Shown: positions 1 through 4,985 of the stretch, piece by piece
How the letters are laid out: every line of letters begins with the position of its first letter
How positions within the stretch are numbered: position 1 is the stretch's first letter
Virus record (IMG/VR): IMGVR_UViG_3300025141_000851
Span: 1-22,388 of that record
Direction: 5' to 3' (one strand)
Source: a virus
Length of the DNA stretch: 22,388 bases
Notes under the pieces: generated by a model
Told to the model about the DNA's origin: nothing
What the model saw: the letters and a program-made list of their open reading frames with translations, nothing else
Databases searched by the model: none
Translations under genes and position numbers: made by a program

Positions 1-66
1 AACGGCGAATTCAGCAAGTGAATTTCCTTTATTACTCTTTATTTTTTTCATTAAGTTTATGAACAT
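1..66 (-). CDS. Partial gene: type IV prepilin-like N-terminus (22 codons)
   Basis: Only the start of this gene is inside the window; it runs off the left edge. The ATG at 66-64 follows a strong ribosome binding site, AGAGGAG at 79-73, with a 6-base spacer. The translation reads MFINLMKKIK then SNKGNSLAEFAV. A lysine-rich N-terminus, then KG, then a hydrophobic stretch with glutamate five residues after the glycine (G-N-S-L-A-E), is the class III signal layout cleaved by prepilin peptidase, where Glu5 is the conserved pilin residue. That points to a pilin-like, membrane-inserted product. It lies downstream of the terminator at 219-245, so it probably has its own promoter in the 80-218 interval, where I see only a weak -10-like TATAAG at 130-125. 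The function in a phage is unknown to me. With 22 residues visible the gene call is firmer than the family call. Confidence 0.6.
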   Translation of the reverse strand, partial: MFINLMKKIKSNKGNSLAEFAV

Positions 67-89
67 TTAGTTCTCCTCTAACTTATTTA

Positions 90-116
90 AATGGGGTTTT
101 TCCTTGTGATAAACCC
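90..116 (-). promoter_or_regulatory. Hairpin in the leader of the pilin-like gene
   Basis: On the minus strand GGGTTT and AAACCC can pair around an 11-base loop, in the leader 25-50 bases before the start codon. It is not followed by a T-run, so it is not an intrinsic terminator. It could stabilise or regulate the leader. Weak evidence, single sequence only. Confidence 0.25.
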
Positions 117-218
117 TTTCCTACCTTATATGTTACAAGAATCGTACCAAACTACCATGCTGCCAAAGCTTTTTTTTAAGTGTTTATATTGTTAGATTTA
201 CATCTATGAAAAATAGGC

Positions 219-245
219 AAAAAAAAAGTACTCAAGTGAGTACTT
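219..245 (-). terminator. Intrinsic terminator of the ncRNA transcript
   Basis: On the minus strand an 8-bp perfect stem AAGTACTC/GAGTACTT closes a 4-base loop (ACTT) and is followed directly by nine T residues (complement of 219-227). This is a standard Rho-independent terminator. It lies about 700 bases after the promoter at 954-982 and just before the pilin-like gene, so it delimits the non-coding transcript. Confidence 0.8.
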
Positions 246-309
246 CTTTATGTGTATCATTTTGTTATAACAATAAGTTACACTAAATGTATGATTATGT
301 TACATGATA

Positions 310-366
310 AAAATAAGGGGGAAATGGGAGTAGTGATGGAGCTACCATGTACATCCCAAATCCCAC
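310..366 (-). terminator. Possible branched terminator or 3' domain of the ncRNA
   Basis: On the minus strand GGG-ATT-TGGGA (366-356) can pair with TCCCA-TTT-CCC around a 3x3 internal loop, enclosing a small ATGG/CCAT hairpin, and the 3' side runs into CCTTATTTTTAT. It may be a weak terminator or the 3' closing domain of the structured RNA upstream. The clean terminator at 219-245 is a stronger stop signal. Confidence 0.35.
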
Positions 367-947
367 AGATTTTCTCTCAATTCAACGACCAGTGTGTGGT
401 ATATTTCTCTTAGTCGGAAAGGAAGTTACCAAAGAACAAGACTATTAGTCACTATTCTTTCTTCCTTACATCTTCCCTCAGCCCTTGGTCAACTAGCCTA
501 CTTATTTTACGACCTAACGGGTCCAGAACTCTCTTGAGATTTCTGTTTTGTAACCTTATCCTATTTTTCAAAAAACTAATTCTTTGGGATTTCAAATTGG
601 TAGAAATCCCGAAACCACCATCTTTTTCAAATTATCGTAGAAAAAGACAAAAACCACGAATCTGGCCCGATGGAAGGGGTTCGAACCCAACAGCCATTCT
701 AACGAAACTCAAGTCATCAACTCTTTGTCTCTCTGACAACCAATACTCCGATGGGTGATTAATCCATCGTTAAGAGCGTCATCGGATTGGTCTACTCAAG
801 TGAGAGATTTTAACTCTTACAGGACTTTCACCACTCTTTCACCGAAATCTTCTTATGTGACTTTACGCCCTTAGTCACTTTTCAATGTTATCCCAATCTA
901 ATGGGTCGGGCTTAAATCAGTATTTTTAACATATCTCTCATTTCCTA
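310..947 (-). ncRNA. Large structured non-coding RNA candidate (about 630-730 nt)
   Basis: No credible gene is found here on either strand; the only plus-strand open frame (534-758) has no ribosome binding site and crosses the RNA-like folds. Sampled 60-base lines reach about 40-50% G+C, against roughly one third in the genes. A strong promoter (954-982) sits just upstream and a terminator (219-245) downstream. Minus-strand helices seen by eye: GCCCGA 911-906 with TCGGGC 670-665 closes a domain containing hairpins 905-902/895-892, 878-873/862-857, a long bulged stem 790-780/753-740 (5+6 bp with a 3-nt AGT bulge), 739-735/729-725 and a GGGTTCGAACCC hairpin at 688-677. A second part has 646-640/628-622 (7 bp), 610-603/593-586 (8 bp), 545-541/528-524, 523-520/514-511 and a nested arm 494-487/430-424 over 460-455/436-431 and 450-447/443-440. 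Size and setting resemble the ornate phage RNAs GOLLD and ROOL, but I could not match a consensus. Confidence 0.65.
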
Positions 948-953
948 TACCTT

Positions 954-982
954 AATATACGAAGAATGCAAACAAAAGTCAA
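954..982 (-). promoter_or_regulatory. Strong sigma70-type promoter of the ncRNA
   Basis: Minus strand: -35 TTGACT (982-977), exactly 17 bases, -10 TATATT (959-954), expected start near 947. Upstream of the -35 lie two A-tracts (about 983-1010) that look like an UP element. A 28-base block covering the A-tract, the -35 and most of the spacer is identical to that of the promoter at 1782-1810. It lies after the stop of the 38-residue membrane protein and directs transcription into the structured RNA region. Confidence 0.8.
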
Positions 983-1010
983 GAGCTTTTTTCACTTTTT
1001 TCAAGCTTTT

Positions 1011-1127
1011 TTATGGATGAAATGGAGCTCCATCAAGAATAAACATTATAACCATTAACATATATAATAGAGCTATACATACTAACCCCATTAACATATC
1101 TTTTACATTTTCTTTTATGTTAGACAT
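1011..1127 (-). CDS. Small single-pass membrane protein (38 aa)
   Basis: This short frame starts at ATG 1127-1125, inside the last codons of the upstream gene (stop 1122-1120), so the two are translationally coupled. GAGGTAGG just upstream can serve as the ribosome binding site. The product begins MSNIKENVKDML, continues with about 20 hydrophobic residues (roughly 12-31, rich in Leu, Ile, Val and Met) and ends in a short polar tail DGAPFHP. This is a typical single transmembrane helix with a charged N-terminus. It is the last gene of a three-gene unit driven by the promoter at 1782-1810, and its stop lies directly before the A-tract of the next promoter. Function unknown; small phage membrane proteins can act in lysis control or superinfection exclusion, but nothing here decides that. 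Confidence 0.6.
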   Translation of the reverse strand: MSNIKENVKDMLMGLVCIALLYMLMVIMFILDGAPFHP

Positions 1128-4083: not shown

Positions 4084-4985
4084 TTGTGTATATGTCCACC
4101 ATTTTGTTTATACCATTTATGATATTGTGATATGTTTCCTACAACAACTGGAACATTACCAGAAGCAGTTCCAATAAGTTTTTCAAGTTCAACTTGTTGT
4201 ACACCATTCATTTTATCAATAACTTTATCTAATACAAAAACACTTTTAATTTTAGTATCATATACTAAAAGTTCATTCCAAGCTTGTCTTTGCCAATGTT
4301 TATTACCACTAAGTGTTGTATCTGGTTCTACAAGATGTTTTTTAATTTCTTTTTTATGTTTTAACATCCATTTATTTGATAAGTCAATATACTTAACAAT
4401 CCATCTATTTGCAAGCATGTTTTTTTGTTTTTTAGTTTCATCGGAATCAGTTTTGAATCCCTTCTTTCTCATTTCTTTTTCTATTCTCTTTTCTTCTTTT
4501 TCCCATGTATCCCATCCATATATACCAGCTTTCTTACGCATAAAATAATGGTCATTTTGAGCATCCACATCACACATCCAAGGAGTAAAAAACCATGCCC
4601 GTCCTTGTTTATCTCTCCCCGTGGCCATATCCATAATCTTTCTTGCCAATAAATTTCCTTGTATGTGAAACACTATACCACCAGTTGTTTGAATACCACC
4701 ACCTGTAGCAAGTTTAGAGTCTATACCCATACGAGTAAATGCGGAAACAGGTTTCTTATTACCAAGTACATTTTTTACAAACTTAATATTTTTTATATCT
4801 GTCGCATGAAAAGCATTTACTGGTATTTTTTTACCTAATACCTTGTCTACTATCCCCGTTGTAAGTGGTACATTCTTTCCTTTTAGAACATAATCCATTA
4901 CTTTTTCTGTCCATGCGGGATATGTCTTACCATCAAGTTTTACTTGTCCACCCTTTTCTACTAATAAATCTTTCAACTTAATCAT
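4080..4985 (-). CDS. Phage protein of unknown function, possibly ADP-ribosyltransferase-like (301 aa)
   Basis: Start ATG 4985-4983 overlaps the stop of the polymerase-like gene by 8 bases; the 3' end overlaps the next gene by 4. The N-terminus MIKLKDLLVE is a short motif I have seen at the start of many marine phage proteins. Residues about 58-111 read AFHATDIKNI, then SAFTRMG, then a glycine-rich ATGGGIQTTGG and the strand VFHIQGN. A 'F/Y-H-x-T' strand followed by 'S-x-F-T' and a G-rich turn before a beta strand is reminiscent of the ADP-ribosyltransferase or RNA 2'-phosphotransferase fold, but the last catalytic Glu motif is not clear. A charged helical region (EKEEKRIEKEMRKKGFKT) follows. 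It could equally be a structural or ejected protein. Confidence 0.8.
   Translation of the reverse strand: MIKLKDLLVEKGGQVKLDGKTYPAWTEKVMDYVLKGKNVPLTTGIVDKVLGKKIPVNAFHATDIKNIKFVKNVLGNKKPVSAFTRMGIDSKLATGGGIQTTGGIVFHIQGNLLARKIMDMATGRDKQGRAWFFTPWMCDVDAQNDHYFMRKKAGIYGWDTWEKEEKRIEKEMRKKGFKTDSDETKKQKNMLANRWIVKYIDLSNKWMLKHKKEIKKHLVEPDTTLSGNKHWQRQAWNELLVYDTKIKSVFVLDKVIDKMNGVQQVELEKLIGTASGNVPVVVGNISQYHKWYKQNGGHIHK

Follow-up and report, generated by a model that had tools for sequence, protein, structure and literature searches.

The minus strand of a 22,388-base IMG/VR record (the window, that is, the whole stretch of DNA analysed here), a myovirus fragment whose minus strand also encodes tail sheath and tape-measure proteins, carries what is almost certainly a genuine structured RNA belonging to a new modular class. 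Judged from its sequence, the region 982-219 is a single predicted transcription unit with a sigma70-like promoter, a mini-ORF of 6 or 9 codons, a structured RNA and a hairpin terminator. Comparison with related phage sequences indicates that the RNA is a mosaic of independently folding modules, of a class in which phages exchange parts: a pseudoknot of tmRNA type, a tRNA-like domain, a domain called M6, 3′ hairpins and real tRNAs. Our overall best explanation, to which we give a probability of about 0.7, is a modular phage RNA made from parts of translation RNAs, which would be stable and act in trans around the translation machinery.

Transcription unit and coding content

The nearest named relatives of the window are Microcystis phage Mel-JY01, the Flavobacterium 'immuto' phages and one uncultured phage record. 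Further relatives (L numbers below) were fetched from viral contigs (IMG/VR) via neighbour genes, and the RNA region was then compared. The closest of them, L003, encodes a neighbouring protein that is 96% identical. Transcription of 982-219 on the minus strand would give one transcript of about 720 nt, in which the mini-ORF is followed by M1, M3, PK-A, PK-B, M6 and the hairpin terminator:

982-954, minus strand: promoter-like element, TTGACT (982-977), 17-nt spacer, TATATT (959-954); 10 of 12 consensus bases
941-912, minus strand: mini-ORF ATG...TAA, MRDMLKILI*, or MLKILI* from 932; the stop abuts the first structured module
911-857, minus strand: M1, hairpins CCCA/TGGG (905-902/895-892) and GTGACT/AGTCAC (878-873/862-857), with loop GGGC (870-867) pairing with GCCC (911-908)
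856-787, minus strand: window-specific spacer between M1 and M3, missing in L003 (which lacks about 849-662) and in L023
786-663, minus strand: M3, acceptor-like TCCGATG (786-780) with CATCGGG (672-666), then CCA (665-663)
659-621, minus strand: PK-A, found by motif search; S1 TCGTGG/CTACGA, loop 1 UUUUUG, S2 TCTTTTT/AAAAAGA
619-586, minus strand: PK-B, with the PK-A motif; S1 GGTGG/CTACC, S2 GGGATTT/AAATCCC; covariation in sets A5 and A4
546-365, minus strand: M6 multibranched domain, outer helix about 546-536/375-365, inner hairpins 521-482, 476-416 and 415-387
363-321, minus strand: M6 second hairpin, 12 + 4 pairs, with covariation including a C-G/G-C swap
304-246, minus strand: conserved 3′ tail; identity of the 3′ end 94% with L003 and 100% with L004
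245-219, minus strand: intrinsic terminator, palindromic stem AAGTACTC-ACTT-GAGTACTT, then a T run

The near-consensus promoter and the terminator had both been noticed in the original prediction and are upheld. The two promoter hexamers are also found upstream of a neighbouring gene (1810-1782), where a 35-nt stretch matches at 86%, and nearly all related RNAs of the own-promoter type have a TTGAC element upstream. The 20-nt palindromic stem of the terminator becomes a 12-bp helix if A-U pairs are counted. The region also lacks a plausible gene, as predicted: on the RNA strand no ORF exceeds 47 aa and none is in common with L003 or L116, while the plus strand has two ORFs of 53 and 74 aa, both short. 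The raised G+C content is equally real (RNA 37.3%, M6 41.6% and M1 plus M3 43.4%, versus 33.8% for the window). At the window edge (1-66, minus strand) a gene start, MFINLMKKIKSNKGNSLAEFAVTT..., is cut off; it resembles a type IV prepilin-type signal, and a Pfam search with 54 aa of this gene taken from L004 gave no match.

Structure is shown by covariation and not by folding energy. The minus strand folds with an unremarkable energy (z = -1.66, 1 of 20 shuffles as good), and a 266-nt sub-domain gives z = -0.60 versus shuffles. Since these energies are no different from what shuffles give, the dozen local helices on which the prediction had relied are no evidence by themselves.

Covariation in the M1 and M6 domains

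The 5′ pseudoknot domain M1 was compared in 16 distinct sequences. Cells were paired at 88.4% versus 76.3% after shuffling, double-change cells numbered 22 versus 6.3, and all slid registers were far worse. The pseudoknot GCCC/GGGC becomes CCCC/GGGG in L109, L110 and L136, three sequences that the automatic alignment had placed one column off; hand correction restores their first helix and over-shifts the third by one. A covariance model of M1 (R1) scored the window at 81.4 bits and gave 18 matches in 54 sources, i.e. the window and 17 other loci. About half of the M1-pattern matches (L207-L211, L213-L216, L218, L220-L224) proved to be chance matches, protein-coding or otherwise unrelated, and were discarded. 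In L105, L107, L124 and L162, M1 is replaced by another 5′ module, GTTACCCTG...ATAGGGGTAG, with a hairpin CACTTCGG/CCGAAGTG that reads CACTTGGG/CCCAAGTG in L107, a compensatory change.

These data replace most of the helices originally named. The letters of a 'closing stem' at 911-906/670-665 are present, but L003 lacks about 849-662 while retaining GCCC at 911-908, and covariation pairs this GCCC with GGGC (870-867) inside M1, as a pseudoknot. A bulged stem at 790-780/753-740 is, on direct reading, absent from L023, the sole other close copy of that domain. The claim of a structured RNA thus stands on covariation, although most of the helices put forward for it are not the conserved ones.

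M6 (about 230 nt, 546-321) has ten pairs with compensatory change, according to RNAalifold and pair counts on the window, L003, L116, L122 and L189. In these five sequences, which represent two clades, 96.6% of cells were paired versus 91.3% when shuffled, with 18 double-change cells versus 7.3. A stretch of M6, TTAGGTCGTAAAATAAG, resembles a tmRNA stretch, CTCGGTCATAAAATAAG, by letters alone.

A tRNA-like domain

M3 combines its acceptor-like stem with a T-arm-like hairpin, TTGGG-TTCGAAC-CCCTT (690-674), in which 3 of the 5 T-stem pairs are standard; the two mismatches are the reason for calling it 'tRNA-like' and not a tRNA. The window M3 has one clear homologue, in L023, with ACTGATG/CATCGGT and a perfect T-arm, TGGAG-TTCGAGT-CTCCA. 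Comparable domains with TTCGA loops occur in L139, L162, L116, L122 and L168, and direct reading reveals a G3.U70-like wobble in the L116 and L168 copies that the window M3 does not have.

Tandem pseudoknots of the tmRNA type

PK-A and PK-B are copies of one H-type pseudoknot, (G)GUGG, loop 1, S2, CUAC(C), nAUUUG, S2′, whose recognition started from a conserved 25-nt stretch. Pattern scans picked up 104 and 89 viral contigs, coding chance matches among them. Among 58 PK-B-type motif matches picked without regard to S2, 37 had S2 complementarity of at least 5 bp, versus 10.4 with swapped partners; none of 500 swaps exceeded 21. When pairs were counted in subsets of fixed length, 95-96% of cells were paired and the covariation score was two to three times that of shuffled alignments; for S2 covariation the values were 21 versus 6.9 and 14 versus 4.7 in the two subsets, A5 and A4.

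The base that opens loop 1 varies with the top of S2: 24 copies have U with U-A, 38 have G with a tandem G.A step and one has C with C-G. Exceptions were two copies in which G stands over U-A, plus two register artefacts. This tracking fits a base triple, and two ancestral variants may partly account for it. In PK-A, loop 1 and S2 could possibly form a U.A-U triple helix.

In genuine tmRNAs of related phages (L112, L135, L250 and others, by ARAGORN), the last pseudoknot has the same motif, and the window pseudoknots match it in register as well. RF00023 or ARAGORN were positive in the relatives L005, L250 (RF00023, 84.4 bits) and G001. In G001 (216 kb) the sole pseudoknot match, at 163506, lies inside its RF00023 tmRNA (163170-163607), and an M1-type RNA is found elsewhere in the same genome (143871-143940). 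The tmRNAs of L005, L006, L008, L009, L112 and L135 have tag peptides ending in YAYA(A), and those of L005, L006, L008 and L009 lie about 4 kb from a homologue of the window's 112-aa gene. L229, from 3129, and several dozen similar contigs show one motif pseudoknot and then another apparent pseudoknot (AGGGTTTCACG..AACCCT, GAGTTAGG..AACTC). These sit after the stop of a gene of about 148 aa ending AEYADTFAIYPK, convergent with an apparent tail sheath gene; a permissive Rfam search of L229 gave matches centred on the terminator.

Gain and loss of modules among relatives

L003 lacks 188 nt (about 849-662, covering M3), keeps M1, PK-A, PK-B and M6, and just before the 3′ tail carries a 3′ hairpin module and a complete tRNA-Pro(UGG) (2022-2097, RF00005 68.3 bits), both absent from the window. 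L023-L025 have only M3, PK-A and PK-B, behind their own promoter. L004 has protein genes at the site and retains the last 88 nt alone, identical. These differences make the locus a hotspot where modules are gained and lost. Dozens of marine phage contigs contain the same modules in different arrangements and copy numbers, together with added tRNA-like domains, real tRNAs and hairpins. Thus L125 has three tandem pseudoknots; L116 and L122 have M1, a tRNA-like domain, a pseudoknot, M6 and a tRNA-Gly-like element; and L114, L132 and L197 have PK-A, PK-B and a short tRNA-like element. In L121, L114, L132 and L197 a tRNA or tRNA-like element comes after tandem pseudoknots, and in L003, L116 and L122 one comes after M6. 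Versions without M6 (L023, L137) measure about 250 nt.

Large contigs scanned contained roughly one array locus per genome. The bacterial genomes searched yielded no convincing tandem array, and a bacterial origin was rejected, the sole bacterial-genome match (L292) lying in an apparently protein-coding stretch and looking like chance. A BLASTN search of 50,697 phage records with the region and with related arrays returned nothing useful.

Other elements accompany the arrays. A manA RNA (RF01745, 56-67 bits) is found a few hundred nt downstream in L105 (927-1121), L107, L125, L139, L159, L162, L193, L198, L204, L266 and L270, and in L003 at 4496-4696; in L139, L105 and L266 the gene next to it encodes a protein that we take to resemble the T4 gp32 ssDNA-binding protein. 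A separate element, GGGTCGGAGTTNNNAGATTANCAT, which looks like another structured RNA, lies downstream of arrays in L109, L110, L185, L187 and L196, and occurs twice within about 250 nt in L109 and L110.

Arrays abut stop codons

In all 19 distinct leaders of own-promoter RNAs, 0-14 nt separate the end of an ATG mini-ORF from the first module. The expectation from dinucleotide shuffles is 7.0 of 19 (P about 2e-9); leaders and arrays share ancestry, so that such probabilities overstate independence. Similar peptides are encoded in several leaders (MLKILI, MLLKIVV, MEILKILV, MNLKTL, MILKTLS). In other phages, arrays begin 2-11 nt past the stop codons of full genes belonging to six unrelated families. 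In both settings the structure thus lies against a stop codon.

Comparison with known RNA families

At gathering thresholds the window matched no Rfam family, GOLLD, ROOL, tmRNA, group I and II introns, RF00005 and manA included. A permissive search (window 1-1100, E<=10) produced chance-level matches only, none of them to GOLLD, ROOL, tmRNA or introns. The membership in GOLLD or ROOL that had been proposed as one option is therefore not supported. The other option, a new class of such RNAs, fits the data, but as a modular mosaic and not as a single fixed fold. Covarying M1, tandem pseudoknot and M6 modules stand behind a promoter or a stop codon, which is what marks the new modular class, and a limited search of Rfam 15 and of open-access literature found no description of it. 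The wider prediction, that this is a large and structured phage ncRNA which has its own promoter and terminator and lies close to tRNA-like sequence, is supported: its modules covary, and conserved reading frames are absent.

The phage RNAs GOLLD and ROOL occur close to tRNAs, and some of them have tRNAs in the linker (PMC12286853). The window RNA resembles them in being several hundred nt long, highly structured, phage-encoded, furnished with pseudoknots and close to tRNAs (PMC12286853), but shows no sequence or structure match to them and consists of exchangeable modules strung together behind a 5′ mini-ORF, with short versions in some relatives.

With tmRNA (RF00023) it shares the last pseudoknot of the phage tmRNAs, with motif GGTGG..CTACC.ATTTG in the same register, and G001 has both RNAs. 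The window RNA is nevertheless not a tmRNA: it has no RF00023 or ARAGORN match and no mRNA-like tag frame, its mini-ORF lies 5′ of the structures, and its domain order differs. No complete tRNA cloverleaf was detected in the window (ARAGORN, RF00005). Because L003 lacks 188 nt, a group I intron in a tRNA was considered; it was rejected, as the missing block holds the tRNA-like domain, is too short for an intron plus a tRNA and matches no intron family.

The 3′ end of tobamovirus RNA carries an upstream pseudoknot domain and a tRNA-like structure. Some relatives of the window RNA similarly have tandem H-type pseudoknots and then a tRNA-like element right behind a stop codon. There is however no known sequence relation, the present RNAs belong to DNA phages with a single locus per genome, and the tRNA-like part of the window RNA precedes its pseudoknots. 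Finally, manA, described from marine sequences and cyanophages (PMC2864571) with mannose, nucleotide and photosynthesis genes as published neighbours, is likewise a structured RNA of marine phages and lies downstream of arrays in many relatives, but is a separate element, absent from the window.

Possible functions

A ribosome on the mini-ORF, or on a gene whose stop abuts the array, would together with the compact pseudoknots leave little bare RNA, so that the molecule may be long-lived. Such a stable RNA made of translation-apparatus parts would act in trans at or near the translation machinery, for instance by binding tRNA or tmRNA partners or by carrying and presenting a tRNA. An action directed at translation is suggested because the parts are a tmRNA pseudoknot, a tRNA-like domain and a tRNA; taken on its own, a stable RNA with this function is a tentative proposal that we rate at somewhat below even odds.

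The main rival, which we consider rather unlikely, treats the arrays as 3′-end stabilisers of phage mRNAs, 3′UTR cassettes that would block 3′-to-5′ exonucleases as in tobamoviruses, the window unit being a mini-gene with an oversized 3′UTR. The position of arrays behind the stops of six gene families and of the mini-ORFs in all leaders examined would be expected of such cassettes, as would the pseudoknot-then-tRNA order in L121, L114, L132 and L197 and a loop 1 and S2 that would allow a U.A-U triple helix, the top S2 pair being matched by the first loop base in almost every copy. A general stabiliser, however, should follow many genes and not occupy about one locus per genome; a 6-codon ORF hardly needs protection; and M6 lies downstream of the window pseudoknots, which are therefore not the 3′ end.

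By analogy with GOLLD and ROOL, the RNA might instead assemble into a cage or scaffold with M6 as its body and the tRNA as cargo or processing signal. Its size, its multibranched fold, the tRNA(-like) elements 3′ of M6 and the tRNA proximity of GOLLD and ROOL themselves (PMC12286853) speak for this, but the absence of an Rfam match to either family and the versions of about 250 nt without M6 make it improbable. We hold it equally improbable that the pseudoknots and tRNA-like domain are a decoy for tmRNA or host translation, sequestering SmpB, EF-Tu or an aminoacyl-tRNA synthetase: the pseudoknot is identical in type to that of phage tmRNAs, and M3 offers a TTCGA T-loop and an acceptor-like stem, to which the L116 and L168 copies add a G3.U70-like pair, but the window M3 has no G3.U70 and an imperfect T-stem, L003 lacks M3 entirely, and there is no mRNA-like tag ORF. 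Decay of a tRNA/tmRNA cluster into a non-functional remnant surviving by chance might explain why the window lacks the tRNA-Pro of L003 and why protein genes replace most of the RNA in L004. This reading is contradicted by the compensatory changes in M1, the pseudoknots and M6, and the promoter and terminator are retained; we consider it very improbable.

In terms of the preferred trans-acting RNA, marine T4-like phages might thus possess a combinatorial RNA gene at one locus, where a kit derived from tRNA, tmRNA and pseudoknots is reshuffled, and where a ribosome-engaging mini-ORF with its stop against the first fold would yield a stable RNA targeting the translation machinery, a picture that we advance with less than even confidence. 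The modular class adds an unlisted family of large structured RNAs from mostly uncultured marine phages, in which RNA evolves by domain shuffling, as proteins do. Its natural short and long versions constitute a ready-made deletion series for the function of each fold, and the fact that tmRNAs and the present RNAs both use one pseudoknot provides a testable link between phage RNAs and ribosome rescue.
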